Source: Acidobacteriota bacterium (GTDB lineage Bacteria > Acidobacteriota > Vicinamibacteria > Vicinamibacterales > 2-12-FULL-66-21). Taken from it: a stretch of DNA of 64,000 nt. Below the pieces are notes generated by a model that worked only from the letters and a program-made list of their open reading frames with translations, was not told where the DNA came from and searched no databases. Of the stretch, positions 56,025-64,000 are shown piece by piece; within the stretch, counting starts at the first letter, position 1, and each line of letters begins with the position of its first letter. Made by a program: the position numbers and the translations under genes. The stretch is from the NCBI GenBank assembly GCA_003222675.1, contig QHWT01000084.1, forward strand, positions 1 to 64,000. Reading direction: 5' to 3'.

Positions 56025-56990
56025 GTGACGCGCACCGTTCGTTTGCTGCTCCTCGTGTTCGGTCTCAGCGTGGTGGCGTTTCTCGTCTGGCGCGCCGGCC
56101 CGCGTTTCCTATGGGCCATGCTCGTACGCACCGGCTGGAGCTTCCTAGCCGTGGTGGGGATTTACGCACTCCATGTGGGCGTCCGCGCCGCAGCGCTGTG
56201 GCGAACCATGCTGGGCGGACGTGTCCGTCTTGGGGACGTGCTGCGCATCCGGCTAGCAGGCGAGGCTGTGGAGATGCTCACCTTCACGGGACCGTTCATC
56301 GCGGAACCGGCGAAAGGATGGCTCCTGACGCGTCGCGGGTTGACGCCGGCCGATGCGTTCGCAGCGGTCGTCACCGAATATCTGCTCTACACCGTCGCTT
56401 CTTCATGGCTGGCAATTGTCGCGTTGTGGCTGCTGCTCGCTCGGGGCACGCTTCCCCCAGGCGTCCAATCCGGCGTTGTGGTCGTTATCGCTCTCACGAT
56501 CGCGTTCCTGGGCGCGTTCGCGTTTGCGGCGATCAGTGGCATTGGCCTAATCGTACCAGTCCTGCGGGCCTCGCGCGTCGTCATCGGCGCGCGGCGGGCC
56601 GAGCGGGCGGCTCACGGATTCAGCCGCGTCGAAGATGCGATCCTCCATTTCCTCCACGAACATCGCGGACGCCTCACAGAAGTGCTCGCGATCGAGACCG
56701 CGGCGCATCTTCTTCTCGTACTCGAGATCTGGATCGTGCTCGTAGCCCTTGGAACATCGCATTCCTGGAACCAGCTCCTCATCATCGAAGGGGGCGTGAA
56801 GTTCGTCCCGATCGCGTTTGCGTTCATTCCCGCTCAGTTCGGTGCATTAGAAGGCGTCCATGCCCTGCTCGCCGCCGCGATCGGACTACCTGCTGCGGTC
56901 GGGCTCACGCTGGCGCTCGTGCGGCGCATGCGTGGTCTGCTCGTAGCCGCGGTTGGCGTGGTCGTCTTGGCGTTCTCGAGTGATCGGTAA
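56025..56990 (+). CDS. YbhN/AglD-like (LPG synthase TM) membrane protein
   Basis: A 321-aa multi-pass membrane protein of the lysylphosphatidylglycerol-synthase TM/UPF0104 family. It has about eight helices and the conserved region LTFTGPFIAEPAKGWLLTRRGL (about 85-106) and GGVKFVPIAFAFIPAQFGALEG (about 263-284). Such proteins are associated with glycolipid or glycan pathways. It starts at GTG 25 bp after the hydrolase gene and may be linked to the polysaccharide genes downstream. Confidence 0.82.
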   Translation: MTRTVRLLLLVFGLSVVAFLVWRAGPRFLWAMLVRTGWSFLAVVGIYALHVGVRAAALWRTMLGGRVRLGDVLRIRLAGEAVEMLTFTGPFIAEPAKGWLLTRRGLTPADAFAAVVTEYLLYTVASSWLAIVALWLLLARGTLPPGVQSGVVVVIALTIAFLGAFAFAAISGIGLIVPVLRASRVVIGARRAERAAHGFSRVEDAILHFLHEHRGRLTEVLAIETAAHLLLVLEIWIVLVALGTSHSWNQLLIIEGGVKFVPIAFAFIPAQFGALEGVHALLAAAIGLPAAVGLTLALVRRMRGLLVAAVGVVVLAFSSDR

Positions 56991-57326: not shown

Positions 57327-58730
57327 ATGGCACAGCTGTTGCCTCTGCCGTTTCCGATGAGCAGCGAACTCCCCACACCACCCGTCACGGATTTTGTCCG
57401 GCCACACACGGGCCGGTCGGCAAGAGCGCGTGAACTTGTCGACGTTCAGGAAAGGTTCCAGCACGCACAGGCCGTTTACGACGAGTACCAGGCCACACGC
57501 CCTCCACAGCCCGCGATCGAACCGTCCGCGGCCGCGACGCCTGTCAACGCTGCACCGGTAATTGTCAGCAGCGTCGAGCCGCCGACTGTCGCGGCGAATG
57601 CCCTGATACGCCGATCATGGCTATGGGTGACGGCGCTGGTCTTCGCCGCGTCGATGAGCAGCCTGGGGGTCGCGCACTACGAGCTGCGAGGCGGCACGCT
57701 GGCGATGCAGGCTGGTGCCATCGAGGGCACCGTGTTCGAGGGTACGATCCAGCCCGCCACGACGTTCGCGATCGCGGCGCCGGCAGGCACGATCGTCCGG
57801 CAGGTGCTCGTGGCGGTCGGCGATCGTGTCGCCGAAGGGCAGCCTCTGCTCGTGACGGACGACCGTGATGCGATCGCGGCCCGTGATGCTGCGACCCTCG
57901 AAGTTCGCGCGGCGCAAGCGAGGCTCGACGACCTCGGTGCGAAGCTCGCGACCATCGATCGCACACCCGTGGAGGAGCTGGTGCTCGCATCCGCCCGCCT
58001 GTCCACGGCTGAGCGCGAGGTCACACAGGTTCCAACGCGGCAATGGCGCGATTCGCCCGAACGGGCGCAGGCGGCTTACGATCAGGCAAAGCTCCATGCC
58101 GATCGATTGCAGAGGCTGTTCGACCAGGGATTGATCGCGCGGCAGGAGGTCGAAGACGCGCAGATTGCGGCTCGCGTCGCGCAGGACGATCTCGTCAACG
58201 CGCGCCAGGCCGCGGCGGCCGGTACATTGGTGCGGACCGCGCAGTCGGAGCACTCCGACGTGCAGCTTCGAGTCGCACGCGCCGACCGGGAGCAACGGCG
58301 GCTCGACCTGCGCGGCGAGCTGCGGACCGCGCGGGTCCTACGCGAACAGGCTGACTACCGGCTGAAGATAGCCGACGAACACATTCGCGCCTGCACCATC
58401 ACCGCGTCGGCTCCGGGCGTTGTCATCGAATTGCCGACGCATGCGGGCGATCAGGTGTACGCGGGCGCGCCACTCGCGCGACTGGCAGTTCTCGACCGGC
58501 TGATCGCCGAAATGCAGGTCGCAACATCGTTGGTCAATGTCCTGCGGCCTGGTGCCTCAGCGCGGGTACGGCTGCCGGGCTTTCCGCCTGTGGACGCGAG
58601 CGGAACGATTGCGACGGTCAATCCGATTCCCAACCGGAACGGCAATTACGTGGTGACGGTGCGCTTCGAGAACCGCACCGGACGCGTACTCGCGGGCCAA
58701 CTCGCGGAAGTTCGATTCATGCTGCCATGA
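57327..58730 (+). CDS. HlyD-family membrane fusion/adaptor protein
   Basis: A 467-aa periplasmic adaptor. An N-terminal cytoplasmic tail rich in proline and alanine (residues 1-95) leads to one membrane helix (WLWVTALVFAASMSSLGVA, about 98-116). A biotinyl-lipoyl half-motif follows (APAGTIVRQVLVAVGDRVAEGQPLL), then a long coiled-coil hairpin (about 190-340), the second lipoyl half (ITASAPGVVIELPTHAGDQVYAGAPLA) and a beta-barrel part. The next gene starts within its stop (ATGA). Similar adaptors accompany Alg44-type polysaccharide export, but no PilZ domain is visible. The start is uncertain; ATG 57357 is possible. Confidence 0.82.
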   Translation: MAQLLPLPFPMSSELPTPPVTDFVRPHTGRSARARELVDVQERFQHAQAVYDEYQATRPPQPAIEPSAAATPVNAAPVIVSSVEPPTVAANALIRRSWLWVTALVFAASMSSLGVAHYELRGGTLAMQAGAIEGTVFEGTIQPATTFAIAAPAGTIVRQVLVAVGDRVAEGQPLLVTDDRDAIAARDAATLEVRAAQARLDDLGAKLATIDRTPVEELVLASARLSTAEREVTQVPTRQWRDSPERAQAAYDQAKLHADRLQRLFDQGLIARQEVEDAQIAARVAQDDLVNARQAAAAGTLVRTAQSEHSDVQLRVARADREQRRLDLRGELRTARVLREQADYRLKIADEHIRACTITASAPGVVIELPTHAGDQVYAGAPLARLAVLDRLIAEMQVATSLVNVLRPGASARVRLPGFPPVDASGTIATVNPIPNRNGNYVVTVRFENRTGRVLAGQLAEVRFMLP

Positions 58731-60271
58731 GGGCGCGGCCGCTCCGCGTGCTCATGACGACCGAGGGAACGTATCCCTTCCACGGCGGCGGCGTCTCCAC
58801 GTGGTGCGACGCACTGATCTCTCATCTGCCTGAGATCGATTACACGCTGCTGGCGGTCGCTATGCACCCGTACGTGCAAAAGCGCTATCAGCTGCCCGCG
58901 AACCTACGCCGATTGGTGACGGTGCCGCTCTGGGGCATCGAAGAGCCCGCGGAGTATTCCTGGGACGTCCCGTTTTCCGAGCTCCTGCGACGCCGCTGGT
59001 CGACCACGTCGATGGTGATCGGCAGCGAATTCATTCCGGCCCTCGGCTCCTTCTTCGAGCTTGCGCTACAGGGTGGCGCGGACACCGATGCGCTCGCAGC
59101 CGCGACGCTCCATCTGCACGAATATTTCGTGCGCTACGATTACCACTACGCGCTGCGAACGCCGGACGCGTGGAAGTGTTTCCAGACGGTCGTGGCGTCG
59201 CTTCGCGCCCGCGGCGCGCTCGACGTCGTCGAACCAACGTACGCGGAGCTGGCCGAAGCGCTGCGCCTCTTCTACCGTTTTCTCCTGGTGCTCAACGTCC
59301 CGGTACCCGATGCCGACGTCCTGCACTCGACTGCCGCGGGCTTCTGCGGGCTGCCATGCGTGATCGGGCGGCTCTCGCGCGGCACGCCCTATCTGCTGAC
59401 GGAGCACGGCGTCTATCTGCGGGAGCAGTATCTCAATCTGCGCCGGCAAGTCCCATCGACGTTTGTTCGCACGCTGCTCTATCGGCTGATGGAATCGGTC
59501 GTGCGGCTCAATTACGCGGCGGCCGACCAGGTGTCTCCAGTGTGCGATTACAACACGCGCTGGGAGGGATGGCTTGGTGTACCCGCCGCACGCATCCGGG
59601 TCGTTCACAACGGCGTCGATCCAGCGCGATTCGCGCCGCCAGAAGCGCGGCTGCCCGGACCTCCGCGCGTCGTCAGCGTCGGACTGATTTATCCACTGAA
59701 AGGGCAGCTCGACTTGATCGAGGCGGCGGCGGCGGTCGCGCGTGAACGTCGTGACGTGCAGTTCGAGGTGTACGGCTCGGCCAGCGATGAGAAGTACTAC
59801 GCGGAGTGCCTGGCACGGGCACGCGAACGACAGCTCGACGACGTCGTTCATTTTCGCGGTCCCACGCATACGCCTTGGATCGCCTATCAGCAAGCGGACG
59901 TTGTCGTCTTGCCGAGCATCTCCGAGGCGTTTCCGTACGCGATGATTGAAGCCATGCTGTGCGGAGCGGCGATCGTGGCCACCGATGTCGGCGGCGTGGC
60001 CGAGGCGCTCAGAGGATGCGGCGTACTCGTCCGGCCTGCGCGTCCTCAGGAGATGGCTGATGCGATTCTCGAGCTGTTGAACAGTCCGGCCGAACGGCAG
60101 CGCCTGGGCACAGCAGCACGCGCACGTGCGCTTCAACAGTTCACGCTGCAGACGATGCTTGACGGCTATCGCGAAAGCTACGCGCGTTTAGCGGGTGAAG
60201 CGCCCGCGGCGGCGGACGGTATCGATGTGGATGACGCCGGCGGATGTCGGTCGCTGGAACCCGTTGTGTGA
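58727..60271 (+). CDS. PelF-like GT4 glycosyltransferase
   Basis: A 514-aa cytoplasmic retaining glycosyltransferase. The N-terminal half matches the DUF3492/PelF type (VLMTTEGTYPFHGGGVSTW, LTEHGVYLREQYLNLRR). The C-terminal GT4 domain has the donor-site motif SISEAFPYAMIEAMLCG (EX7E, about residues 400-410) and GGVAEAL. PelF polymerises UDP-N-acetylhexosamine for the Pel exopolysaccharide. The ATG overlaps the adaptor stop. The 3' end overlaps the convergent gene by 84 bp. No second PelF-type copy lies in the window. Confidence 0.88.
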   Translation: MRARPLRVLMTTEGTYPFHGGGVSTWCDALISHLPEIDYTLLAVAMHPYVQKRYQLPANLRRLVTVPLWGIEEPAEYSWDVPFSELLRRRWSTTSMVIGSEFIPALGSFFELALQGGADTDALAAATLHLHEYFVRYDYHYALRTPDAWKCFQTVVASLRARGALDVVEPTYAELAEALRLFYRFLLVLNVPVPDADVLHSTAAGFCGLPCVIGRLSRGTPYLLTEHGVYLREQYLNLRRQVPSTFVRTLLYRLMESVVRLNYAAADQVSPVCDYNTRWEGWLGVPAARIRVVHNGVDPARFAPPEARLPGPPRVVSVGLIYPLKGQLDLIEAAAAVARERRDVQFEVYGSASDEKYYAECLARARERQLDDVVHFRGPTHTPWIAYQQADVVVLPSISEAFPYAMIEAMLCGAAIVATDVGGVAEALRGCGVLVRPARPQEMADAILELLNSPAERQRLGTAARARALQQFTLQTMLDGYRESYARLAGEAPAAADGIDVDDAGGCRSLEPVV

Positions 60272-61192
60272 CGAGGCGATCGGACCGGTGAACGACGAGC
60301 GCGACACGGCCGCGGGCATCGACGGACGTCCGCGCCACGGCAGTTGGCTATCAGTCGCACTGAACGACGGCTCACCCCATCCAAAGGCATCCACGCCCGC
60401 CATGACGGCTGCCCACCACGCGTAATTCAACAGCGACCGATCGAAGTCGAACGACCCGGCGGTTGCCGTCGCGAACACGGACGCGCCCGTGGCGGCGGCT
60501 CCCCTCATCGCGCGCTCGACGCGATCGCACCACGCATGAGGGTCCTCGGCTACGCCCTGGCGAATCATGAAGGACTCGAGCAGGTACGCGTCGCCTGCCT
60601 TCAGTCGCGGCGCGACGCCCTCAGCCGTCACCGAGAACGCGTCGTCGGGATTGAACGCGTTCAGCAGTACCCGAAGTCCCGCGCGGTGCACCGCATCAAC
60701 GGCCGCGTTCTGGCGATCGCGAGTAACGCCAAAGTCGGTGCCGGCTTCATCGAAGAGAATGCCACCCGCTCCAATTGCCTTCCACCGATCGATGCGCGTG
60801 CGGATTTCGTCCAGCGTCAGCTGCTCGGTCCGGCCGAGATCGATATAGCCGAACACGATGGGTTTGCGGCGCGTCGCCGCCAGCTTCGCAATTAGCGCGG
60901 CCGTTCTGCGATACTCGACGGCGCCCACACCGGCTGGACGGCGCGAGGCCACGACATCATCGAACTCGAGTCCGTCTCCCAACACGATGAATTCATAGTC
61001 CGCGAAGACGGCGGCCGCGCGGGCGAGGTCGCCGGCCGCGCCGTTCACCAGGCTCGGAATGCCGTAGTAAATCGCGAGCCTCCTCGGCTCGACGACACGC
61101 GACGCCGCAGCCTGCAGCAGATCGGAGAGCACGAGGCTTGCGACGATCAGCGCCGCGCCGTATCCGACGCACGATGTCCGGGGGTCAGCCAC
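60188..61192 (-). CDS. Exported TIM-barrel glycoside-hydrolase-like protein
   Basis: About 334 aa. A membrane-anchor or signal stretch (CVGYGAALIVASLVLSDLLQAA) precedes a barrel that starts LAIYYGIPSLVNG and has DYEFIVLGDGLEF, PIVFGYIDLG, GAGGILFDEAGTDFGVTRDR and VLLNAFNPDDAF. These fit the GH114/GH135 (spherulin-4)/PelA-hydrolase (GH166) superfamily, enzymes that cut galactosamine-rich polymers; the acidic residues in FDEAGTD and GDGLE are candidate catalysts. GTG 61192 overlaps the upstream stop; ATG 61225 is possible. Confidence 0.78.
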   Translation of the reverse strand: MADPRTSCVGYGAALIVASLVLSDLLQAAASRVVEPRRLAIYYGIPSLVNGAAGDLARAAAVFADYEFIVLGDGLEFDDVVASRRPAGVGAVEYRRTAALIAKLAATRRKPIVFGYIDLGRTEQLTLDEIRTRIDRWKAIGAGGILFDEAGTDFGVTRDRQNAAVDAVHRAGLRVLLNAFNPDDAFSVTAEGVAPRLKAGDAYLLESFMIRQGVAEDPHAWCDRVERAMRGAAATGASVFATATAGSFDFDRSLLNYAWWAAVMAGVDAFGWGEPSFSATDSQLPWRGRPSMPAAVSRSSFTGPIASSHNGFQRPTSAGVIHIDTVRRRGRFTR

Positions 61193-62897
61193 GGACGCGG
61201 AACCGGAAGATGGTGAGCTGCTCATCGTCGTAGTAGACGGACGCACCGTGATGCGAGCGTCCGTACGCTTCGCACAACGCGAACAGGCGTGCCTGGAGGC
61301 TCGCGCGCCCTGCAAGCGAGCGATAGTGACGATAGCTCGGGTCGGCCAGTCTCGAGAACGGCACCTCCGGCGGTTCTGCTGCGAATGTCTTGAACGGACG
61401 TTTCTCGACGAACACCAACAGGTCGTCGACGGCGAAGTCGAAGCTGAAGTCGGGATCGGCGACGCGCTGCGCGTATCGATCGACGAAGGCCGATGGCTCT
61501 TCGTACCATCCGCGGCCGAACGCCTCCGCGAGCTGCTCCACCGGCGCCACGATGAGCCACTTGCCGCGCGGCAAATTGGATACAATCTCGAGGGTCTTCT
61601 GCGGCGTGACCGGGTGTTCGAGGTAGAGCGCGCCGTTCGTGCGCGGAACCAGCACCACGAGCGCGCACGCCACGGTCGACGCGAGCGCGTACTCTACCTG
61701 CGCTCCTGCGAACTGGCGAACCAGCGCCGTCGCCAATGCGTAGAGCGCGCCTGCGGTCAACGCGATTGTGATCGGCAGCGTCAATGCAATGGTGCGTGCC
61801 GCATCTCCCGCCCCAGCCACTGCTGCCGCTGCAATGCACGAACACACCGCCATGCTCGCAAGGAATGCGGCACGGTACGGCATTACTGCGTGCAGGAGAA
61901 CGACAGGCACGAGCAGAAGGAGGATCAGAGGCTGTGCGAGCGCTGCAGCTGCCACGCATGCGGCAGCAGTCGTGGACGAGGCGGGACGCCGCATGGCGAT
62001 CGCAATAGCTCCCAGCACGAGAAACAGTACGGCTACCTCGAGATCTCCGGGACACCATTGGCGCGTCAGCGCTTGGCGCAGAACGCGCGCGAACTCGCCG
62101 CCGCCGTCGGTATATTTCGCGATGCCGAACGGGTAGCCGCCCAGCACCCAGAGGGTCATGACGCCGGCCGTCGGCTCTCTCGTGGCGCAACGCACGAGCC
62201 CTGCGCACGCGATCACAAGAGACAGTCCGATGATGGGCCCTGTCAGCCGAACCACGTGAAGCGGATTCAAGGAAGACGCGCAGCTGAGCGCGGCCGCCAC
62301 GGCGCTGGTGACGGGAACGAATCCTTCTGGCGCATCGAACAGCGCGCGCCGCGCGCTGAGCAGAATGGCATACGCGTCAGGGTCGCCAAGTCGCAGATCG
62401 CCGAGGACGGGTTGCACTCGCAGATATCCAGCAACCGCAAGACCAGCAGCCGTGGTCGCGGCGAGCATGGCGCTCCGATGCGGCAGCCGATCGAGCTGCC
62501 GTCGCATGCTCGTCACGCGCCCGAGAACCGTGCGACGCGCAATGTTCGGCCACTGACGCCGGAGATCGATCGAACCGTGCTGCTCGAGGCGACGGACCAT
62601 CCCAATGGTCCACTCTCGCATGACCATCCGCACCGCATGCCCGGCTGCCCAGTTGTAGCGGATCAGCCACCTCGTCGCCGACCACGCGAGGATGGCGGCC
62701 AGCAGCGTCGCCGCATTGAGAATGTGGAGACGCGCGAGGATGTTGACGGCGATAACGGTCACGAGAGTCGCGCGCGCGATCAGCGCAAGACGCGCGATCG
62801 GATCGCCGAAGACGCCGCGCCGATCTGCGCTGAACGCGCGCAGGAGCACGGTAGCAACGATCAGCAGCCACGCGGTCCTCAACAGGTCGTTGACCAT
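61185..62897 (-). CDS. Large multi-pass membrane protein of the polysaccharide locus
   Basis: 570 aa with a dozen or so hydrophobic helices over residues 1-420, then a soluble end of about 150 residues (GKWLIVAPVEQLAEAFGRGWYEEPSAFVDRYA, VDDLLVFVEKRPFK, HGASVYYDDEQLTIFRFRV). The topology resembles GT-C type or oligosaccharide-transferase-like membrane enzymes, but I recognise no motif. It lies between the PelG-like and TIM-barrel genes with overlapping or 4-bp junctions, so it should act in the same pathway. ATG 62897 is used; ATG 62912 would overlap the upstream stop. Confidence 0.7.
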   Translation of the reverse strand: MVNDLLRTAWLLIVATVLLRAFSADRRGVFGDPIARLALIARATLVTVIAVNILARLHILNAATLLAAILAWSATRWLIRYNWAAGHAVRMVMREWTIGMVRRLEQHGSIDLRRQWPNIARRTVLGRVTSMRRQLDRLPHRSAMLAATTAAGLAVAGYLRVQPVLGDLRLGDPDAYAILLSARRALFDAPEGFVPVTSAVAAALSCASSLNPLHVVRLTGPIIGLSLVIACAGLVRCATREPTAGVMTLWVLGGYPFGIAKYTDGGGEFARVLRQALTRQWCPGDLEVAVLFLVLGAIAIAMRRPASSTTAAACVAAAALAQPLILLLLVPVVLLHAVMPYRAAFLASMAVCSCIAAAAVAGAGDAARTIALTLPITIALTAGALYALATALVRQFAGAQVEYALASTVACALVVLVPRTNGALYLEHPVTPQKTLEIVSNLPRGKWLIVAPVEQLAEAFGRGWYEEPSAFVDRYAQRVADPDFSFDFAVDDLLVFVEKRPFKTFAAEPPEVPFSRLADPSYRHYRSLAGRASLQARLFALCEAYGRSHHGASVYYDDEQLTIFRFRVRG

Positions 62898-62901
62898 GGC
62901 G

Positions 62902-64000
62902 TCATGCCACATAGCAGCCGTAACCGGGGCGCTCCAACGCGACAGCAACCGCCACGTGCGACCGCCACAGGAAGACGGCGGCACCGGCACACATCGCGGC
63001 CGCTGCGTAGGTACTGCCGAACACGTTGCTCGACACATAGCCGCCGAGGGCGTTCACCATTACGCCGGCAACGAGTGCGCGCAGGACGGGCACCGGCGCG
63101 TTCACGCTGAACAACACGAGCGCGTTGAATAGGCCAAGTTCTAGGAGCAGGTATCCGCAGAGGCCAAGCACCATCACGCGTGAGGCGATCGGATCCGTCA
63201 GCGTCGGACGCCCGACTGGTAGCACCAGCAGCGCGATCGCAACGAACGCGACCGCAACGAGCGCGCGCGAGCGGACACATCGGCGTTGAATGCGGGCCTG
63301 ATACTCCACACCGGCCGAGGGTGTCCACCGCGACGCCTCCTGCTGCCAGAAGTGCACGAAGCGATAGTTGATGAATTCCACCGCCGCCATCGAGAGGAGG
63401 AAACACAGCAGTGCAGCGTCCATACCCGCCTGATATCGTGCGTCGATCGCGAACTCAATGCCCGCCGCAGCAGGCACCGAGGTGCCTGCCGCAATGCGAT
63501 CGGCAAAGACGAACGCGAAGTAACCGGAGCCATAGCAGAAGTACGGCGCGAGCGCGCGAACCAGGACCGCATGGCGCGGTGACGCGAGTTCACCGACCGC
63601 CGTGGCGCCATGTCGGCTGAACGCGAACGCCACCAACCCCAGCGCGATGCCGAGCGCAACCGAGACCGCCAGAATCTGCGAGACGAGAGGCGACACATGC
63701 ACCGCGCGACACAGCGCGAACGCGGCGCCAGCGCCGCCGAACGCTGCCGGCACCTGCCAGTAACGCCGCTCGAGCCACAGCACACCACACGTGAGCCAGA
63801 ACGTCCCGAGCATGATGTAGACGCCTGCGCCGAGCGCTGCGTACCTGAGCTCGAACAAATCCAGGTACCACGCCGCGCTGGTCGCCATTAATGCCGTCGC
63901 CGCAATGGTGGCGACACCGCACTGCCAGATGCGCTCGGTCACCGCGGCACCGAGCGCGTGCTGCCCGAGGCCAATGTAGAAGCTCCCTTTGCGCGCAATG
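62902..64000 (-). CDS. PelG-like polysaccharide transporter (5' end cut)
   Basis: At least 366 aa of a MATE-like inner-membrane transporter. The frame is open to the window edge: before the in-frame GTG at 63942 it reads IARKGSFYIGLGQHALGAA, matching the usual N-terminal RKGT-type start of PelG proteins, so the true start lies beyond 64000. Further PelG-like features are GYFAFVFADRIAAGT and ARYQAGMDAALLCFLLSMA, AVEFINYRF. About 10-11 helices are visible. PelG is thought to move Pel polymer across the inner membrane. Confidence 0.82.
   Translation of the reverse strand, partial: IARKGSFYIGLGQHALGAAVTERIWQCGVATIAATALMATSAAWYLDLFELRYAALGAGVYIMLGTFWLTCGVLWLERRYWQVPAAFGGAGAAFALCRAVHVSPLVSQILAVSVALGIALGLVAFAFSRHGATAVGELASPRHAVLVRALAPYFCYGSGYFAFVFADRIAAGTSVPAAAGIEFAIDARYQAGMDAALLCFLLSMAAVEFINYRFVHFWQQEASRWTPSAGVEYQARIQRRCVRSRALVAVAFVAIALLVLPVGRPTLTDPIASRVMVLGLCGYLLLELGLFNALVLFSVNAPVPVLRALVAGVMVNALGGYVSSNVFGSTYAAAAMCAGAAVFLWRSHVAVAVALERPGYGCYVA

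Follow-up and report, generated by a model that had tools for sequence, protein, structure and literature searches.

What would a bacterium make with a PelF-like polymerase and a PelG-like transporter encoded on opposite strands, and by which route would the product leave the cell? The question is raised by a locus at the end of a 64,000-nucleotide stretch of DNA (the window) from an Acidobacteriota bacterium of the order Vicinamibacterales (assembly GCA_003222675.1, contig QHWT01000084.1), where genes for an HlyD-type adaptor, PelF, a TIM-barrel protein, a multi-span membrane protein, a PelG-like transporter and an Agd3-like deacetylase adjoin one another (Table 1). The locus likely encodes a Pel/galactosaminogalactan (GAG)-like pathway, predicted to produce a partly de-N-acetylated, alpha-1,4-linked exopolysaccharide rich in N-acetylgalactosamine (GalNAc). 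This reading is drawn from the PelF equivalog match, the Agd3 motifs and CBM87 domain, the acid pattern of the TIM barrel and the probable divergent PelG; from relatives that repeat the same functions with swapped enzymes; and from Agd3-PelF-PelG-like operons that carry galactosaminidase-type genes.

PelF passes the NCBIfam PelF equivalog model (154.5 bits, cut-off 100), in agreement with an earlier sequence-only reading of the window that had named a PelF-like glycosyltransferase. It carries DUF3492 (149.9 bits, 1.6e-43) plus a GT4 domain, retains the E-x7-E motif (SEAFPYAMIEA), and is the sole DUF3492 protein of the genome. In the PelF tree, the PelFs of canonical Pel systems form a group of their own, with support of 100/100, and the window PelF falls outside it. 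The non-canonical side holds the GAG-like operons of Deinococcus and Actinobacteria (99/97) and the window's group, in which the window PelF is joined by sequences from two further acidobacteria and seven cyanobacteria (98/98).

This placement bears on the idea that the locus is a rearranged form of the canonical Pel operon whose PelB, PelC, PelD and PelE are encoded elsewhere in the genome. Split and rearranged pel operons do exist (PMC7112194), but the position of PelF outside the canonical clade argues against one here, as does a PelG-like protein with a different domain architecture. PelB, PelC and PelD, which the sequence-only reading had not seen, are missing from the locus when the contig is read past 64000, and so is PelE. 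A search of the whole genome (99.9% complete) returned 0 matches to PelD_GGDEF or the PelB barrel domain, and control genomes gave none either; PelC and PelE were searched at the locus only. A rearranged canonical operon is regarded as highly improbable.

The PelG-like transporter had no match in direct Pfam and NCBIfam scans, and its assignment comes from its family. PF16933 (PelG) matched seven of the 22 aligned members, two of them above the cut-off of 29 (29.8 and 31.2 bits), and hhalign matched the family along its full length to canonical PelG from Caballeronia, Sulfitobacter and Pseudoalteromonas (407 columns, E 1.3e-5, probability 80.7). An extra N-terminal domain of ~85 residues (WE-x-AA-x-ESLGYTD...FG) falls outside the canonical alignment, and the same domain is found in the multi-span proteins of the GAG-like operons of Deinococcus, Streptomyces and Kocuria (probability 99.2, E 2e-19). 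By these profile matches, the window transporter is probably a diverged member of the PelG family to which an N-terminal domain has been added, which upholds its naming as PelG-like, and the multi-span protein of bacterial GAG-like operons is likewise a probable PelG relative.

Extension of the contig beyond the window, where the sequence-only reading had proposed to look for relatives of pelD, pelE or pelB, found none of these at the locus and instead gave the first-transcribed gene of the minus-strand operon, separated from the pelG-like gene by 12 bp. Its 653-aa product contains Agd3_CE and CBM87 domains (108.8 and 35.1 bits, cut-off 27.6) and matches PDB 6nwz (E 2.4e-18). The catalytic motifs CM1–CM4 are all present (QVDD, HTWDH, the R of PRYP, and MFH), the DD, HxxxH, Arg and His motifs of the Agd3 family having been defined by Bamford et al. 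(PMC7229062). Judged by these motifs, the protein is an Agd3-type CE18 deacetylase, with predicted activity on an alpha-1,4-GalNAc polymer. In genome G130, the Agd3-like deacetylase (L010:7051-9291) has two PASTA domains at its C-terminus, and in genome G122 (L009:3333-7556) the expected agd3 place upstream of the pelG-like gene is taken by a 1407-aa protein with around ten CarboxypepD_reg repeats.

The exported TIM-barrel protein matched nothing in direct Pfam and NCBIfam scans, and its profile found no useful match among PDB sequences. Three of its relatives scored 25.0 (1.6e-5), 18.9 and 12.5 bits with the Spherulin4 profile, all below the 30.2 cut-off, and hhalign of the family against true Spherulin4 gave E 2.8e-4 with a probability of 40.8. 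The AlphaFold model of the window protein is a TIM barrel, as had been anticipated from the sequence, and it places D145/E146 (FDE, end of beta4) and E203 (LLES, end of beta6) at strand ends. These residues, 58 apart, are invariant in the family, and FFDE...VFE is found at the equivalent positions of Sph3. In endo-galactosaminidase families, the nucleophile and acid are located at the beta4 and beta6 ends (PMC12054363). On this acid pattern and model, the protein is described as GH135-like, not as a proven GH135. A fucanase reading, raised by GH168 matches in the fold search, was not adopted because of template modelling (TM) scores of <=0.57 and root-mean-square deviations of >=6; a relationship to GH114 was unsupported (hhalign probability 1.4).

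Conservation of the gene set was assessed across related genomes. The complete set of six lies together in three further acidobacterial genomes, G026 (L008), G130 (L010) and a Terriglobia metagenome-assembled genome (L026), so the grouping is not due to chance, and the proposal of a conserved six-gene neighbourhood holds. The genes are divergent in L008, run in one direction in L010, and run in one direction but in a different order in L026. It follows that gene content is conserved and that the convergent layout, previously taken as a property of the system, is incidental. Nor is the system specific to Acidobacteriota, as had been suggested, since pelF and pelG-like genes, many with the gene for the membrane protein, are also found in Cyanobacteria, Firmicutes, KSB1, one deltaproteobacterium and one Chloroflexi contig. 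In cyanobacterial loci the partner enzymes are GalE, Spherulin4 and a Polysacc_deac_1 protein; Sulfobacillus-type (Firmicutes) loci carry GH114; and genes for Spherulin4, a polygalactosaminidase or both are found in the Agd3-PelF-PelG-like operons on Deinococcus, Streptomyces and Kocuria plasmids. Going by these domain assignments, partner enzymes are swapped between groups while the pathway steps stay. The set is rare: the PelG-like protein was found in 4 of the 149 genomes of the order and Agd3_CE in 2 of the 396 genomes of the phylum. Strong matches of the membrane-protein family came from 8 of these 396, a count that leaves out 36 Acidobacteriota with weak profile matches (mostly to the middle transmembrane part, E 1e-9 to 1e-3).

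These partner enzymes also help in weighing whether the locus makes another hexosamine polymer or a lipid-linked glycan, such as a glycolipid or S-layer glycan, with the homology to PelF and PelG reflecting shared ancestry only. Such a product would suit a membrane protein that resembles oligosaccharyltransferases and other lipid-donor enzymes, but a GalNAc-specific Agd3 family deacetylase and a galactosaminidase-type hydrolase share the operon, and functional equivalents are present in the relative groups. This alternative is considered unlikely, and a GalNAc polymer remains the preferred product.

The membrane protein, which the sequence-only reading had listed as unknown, is indeed without a Pfam family: direct Pfam and NCBIfam scans were empty, its profile found no useful match among PDB sequences, and PMT was matched weakly by one relative. 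An AlphaFold model built from 30 relatives (predicted local distance difference test 82.9, predicted TM-score 0.84) nevertheless gives it the predicted fold of a GT-C glycosyltransferase, and the family recurs beside pelF and pelG across phyla. Among the top 12 PDB fold matches, 11 carry the names of GT-C enzymes or of oligosaccharyltransferase complexes (PglB, yeast OST, AglB, DPY19, AftD); the one exception is a chain from a secretory translocon complex, and ArnT stands at rank 14; PglB matched at 4.8e-4 and probabilities were 0.92–1.00. The loop after helix 140–166 holds a D-x-Y motif, in which Tyr is kept in 28 of the 30 rows and is preceded two residues earlier by D or E in most of the 30 members, and by D in the window protein. 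We take this acid to resemble the first-loop acid of PglB/STT3. A GT2 gene lies near the GT-C gene in nine Firmicute or deltaproteobacterial loci (L030, L032, L033, L039, L041, L042, L043, L047 and L048), and for the four of these neighbours tested, models for PpgS (polyprenyl-phosphate-GalNAc synthase) or AglJ ranked first, below cut-off. In Mycobacterium tuberculosis, PpgS makes polyprenyl-phosphate-GalNAc, the donor for the membrane glycosyltransferase Rv3779 (PMC3485146). Given these neighbours, this precedent and the fold, a GT-C step with a lipid donor is a reasonable inference. On plasmids, this membrane protein was not found.

The adaptor exceeds the cut-offs of HlyD_D23 (52.8 bits) and HlyD_3 (51.1 bits), and is under the cut-off of RND_mfp (87.1 bits). 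In two other acidobacterial loci (L082 and L087), genes for HlyD, a TolC/OEP protein, PelF, PelG and the GT-C protein stand in a single row, with the TolC-type OEP gene (50.9 and 53.9 bits) between hlyD and pelF. These rows are the best evidence for HlyD acting with a TolC channel, and HlyD/TolC probably stands in for PelB/PelC, which supports the earlier placing of HlyD where PelB and PelC would be expected. At another locus (L084:11032-13437), an AAA_22 ATPase domain precedes the HlyD adaptor in one open frame, a possible fusion.

Together, these assignments allow a pathway to be proposed. PelF, going by its family, would polymerise UDP-GalNAc in the cytoplasm, supplied by an unlinked GalE (encoded in the same genome at C51:53140-54102), and the PelG-like protein, again by family, would move the chain across the inner membrane. 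From its fold, the GT-C protein would most likely act at the membrane together with PelF and PelG, with a polyprenyl-phosphate as the donor of an added sugar. Either in the periplasm or beyond it, the Agd3-like enzyme, with its catalytic motifs, would strip acetyl groups and so render the polymer cationic and adhesive, and the Sph3-like TIM barrel may, given its acid pattern, trim the chain. HlyD would hand the polymer to a TolC-type outer-membrane channel, as the gene in two relatives suggests. The proposal also draws on the L082 and L087 rows, the GT-C fold, the PpgS-like GT2 neighbours and the genome's own GalE.

Several observations count against this pathway. The substrate of PelF cannot be predicted from sequence; the window operon has no TolC gene; and the fold search with the hydrolase put generic TIM barrels first, not Sph3. 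The TM-scores of the GT-C matches are low (0.25–0.35), which places the relation at superfamily level. The first-loop acid is missing in a few members of the family, although the Tyr is nearly invariant, and the acidobacterial loci contain no polyprenyl-phosphate-sugar synthase. The last two points would also fit a GT-C-fold protein that is a non-enzyme structural partner of PelF and PelG, substituting for PelD/PelE, as would the Deinococcus and Actinobacteria operons, which manage without a GT-C protein. Most members, the window protein included, nonetheless have D or E at the motif position, and GT2 genes whose best models are of PpgS/AglJ type adjoin the GT-C gene in Firmicute and deltaproteobacterial loci. 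A structural role is a serious contender, if a doubtful one; an enzymatic GT-C step is preferred.

Table 1. Genes of the Pel/GAG-like locus. Window and contig numbering coincide.
Feature	Position	Strand	Basis and remarks
HlyD/RND-type periplasmic adaptor	57327-58730	+	HlyD_D23 and HlyD_3 profiles
PelF, GT4 glycosyltransferase (polymerase)	58727-60271	+	NCBIfam PelF, DUF3492
Exported TIM-barrel protein, candidate GH135 (Sph3)-like endo-galactosaminidase	60188-61192	-	GTG start; model and acid pattern
Multi-span membrane protein of predicted GT-C fold; soluble domain at the C-terminus	61185-62897	-	AlphaFold model; no Pfam family
PelG-like transporter with extra N-terminal domain	62902-64440	-	Window stops at 64000; family and profile matches
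Agd3-like CE18 deacetylase with CBM87, 653 aa	64453-66414	-	Wholly outside the window (contig numbering); Agd3_CE, CBM87

The window is C91:1-64000 of a 7.16-Mb assembly, in a contig that runs on to 90094. All of the genes named by the sequence-only reading were confirmed in their places, as was the overlap of hlyD and pelF (4 bp) on the plus strand, facing a minus-strand operon. The 3' ends of pelF and the convergent TIM-barrel gene overlap by 84 bp. Spacings of -8 bp between the TIM-barrel and membrane-protein genes, and of 4 bp between the latter and the pelG-like gene, indicate that the minus-strand genes form one operon. A YbhN/HpnL-like gene upstream of hlyD (56025-56990) was excluded from the locus because it was never seen beside hlyD in the loci of relatives. 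The far boundary is formed by tRNA-Leu(GAG) (66847-66933), followed by secG, tpiA, pgk and gap. The tRNA-Leu/secG/tpiA/pgk block also occurs in G082 (same genus) and in G054 and G035 (both of the same family), where the six genes do not adjoin it as far as the contigs reach; the locus thus sits at a variable site beside a tRNA gene. The position of tRNA-Leu(GAG) by secG-tpiA-pgk is kept across the family (C91:66847-66933; L097, L100, L101) and the neighbouring stretch varies, which suggests an insertion hot spot.

The general kind of system is already known from the bacterial Agd3 operons of Bamford et al. (2020), who identified homologues of Agd3 in 45 species of bacteria. The operons that hold them encode a glycosyltransferase and a multi-span membrane protein together with GH114 and, in some cases, spherulin-4, and some lie near Pel genes (PMC7229062). 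The window shares with these GAG-like operons an Agd3-type deacetylase, PelF, a multi-span protein of the PelG-like family and a galactosaminidase-type hydrolase (the window's by acid pattern only). It differs in having HlyD and the GT-C protein, which is absent from the Deinococcus and Actinobacteria operons, and in lacking an epimerase and GH114 at the locus; its host belongs to a Gram-negative phylum unnamed in the text of that survey (PMC7229062). With Pel (pelABCDEFG in Pseudomonas and others; pelDEADAFG in Bacillus cereus, PMC7112168) it shares PelF, a PelG relative, and hydrolase and deacetylase functions, so that the initial description of the system as Pel-like but non-standard in its gene set was broadly right. 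Unlike Pel, the locus has no PelB, C, D or E, and its PelF lies outside the canonical clade. PelA is not so much missing as replaced by two unrelated separate proteins, the Agd3-like deacetylase (encoded just outside the window) and the Sph3-like hydrolase. The Aspergillus galactosaminogalactan cluster (uge3, sph3, gtb3, ega3, agd3) likewise has an Agd3 family deacetylase and an Sph3-like hydrolase, whereas in the window synthase and export are separate bacterial proteins, and Uge3 and Ega3 are absent from the locus. The membrane protein resembles GT-C glycosyltransferases (PglB, STT3, AglB, DPY19, ArnT, and Rv3779 with PpgS) in predicted fold, in the D-x-Y acid kept by most members and in the PpgS-like GT2 near some relatives, but lacks a family match at sequence level and is tied to PelF/PelG, not to protein glycosylation or arabinogalactan. 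Open-licence literature (searched for PelF with PelG and HlyD, PelF in cyanobacteria, Gtb3 with PelF, and Acidobacteria with Pel) did not describe the gene set; nor was any account found there of a GT-C partner, of HlyD and TolC in this arrangement, of the multi-span protein as a PelG relative, or of the spread to Acidobacteriota and Cyanobacteria.

Further features were observed at the loci of other phyla. The GalE beside cyanobacterial pel-like genes has a C-terminal MshE-related domain of the type that binds cyclic di-GMP (c-di-GMP) (45–60 bits, cut-off 38) in L016, L018, L020, L021, L022, L027 (3348-4601), L028 and L037; L023 has GalE without it. This suggests that cyanobacterial c-di-GMP control acts on UDP-GalNAc supply instead of PelD. 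Big cyanobacterial proteins adjoin the locus (L029:1175-5128; relatives in L016, L018-L023, L025, L027, L028, L037, L045), and one of them, when tested, proved to combine a polysaccharide-deacetylase domain with RTX calcium-binding repeats; it may be a deacetylase that is secreted and acts on the same polymer. In Firmicute loci, a GAF and HD_5 protein, a possible c-di-GMP phosphodiesterase, lies between the pel-like genes and GH114 (L041:13558-15129; L030, L039, L040, L042-L044, L046-L048). One genome titled Cyanobacteria bacterium in GenBank (L014, JAIEMQ010000002.1) falls in the window's order, and is apparently mislabelled.

A broader proposal, put forward tentatively and at somewhat less than an even chance, is that Acidobacteriota, Cyanobacteria, Firmicutes and others share a third kind of Pel/GAG machine. 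Its membrane core would combine PelF, N-extended PelG and a GT-C enzyme that resembles oligosaccharyltransferases and takes GalNAc or another sugar from a lipid-linked donor, with an HlyD-TolC exit in place of PelBC in Gram-negatives, and with cyanobacterial c-di-GMP control moved from PelD to a GalE-MshE-type fusion. The locus connects GalNAc-polymer synthesis, in several phyla, with a family of membrane proteins for which Pfam has no model, gives that family a testable GT-C mechanism, and suggests an adaptor/TolC exit for a synthase-type exopolysaccharide. It also joins the bacterial GAG-like operons to Pel, their unnamed multi-span protein being a predicted PelG relative, and widens the range of Agd3-type deacetylases to include Acidobacteriota, a point relevant to the proposal that the Aspergillus cluster came from bacteria.

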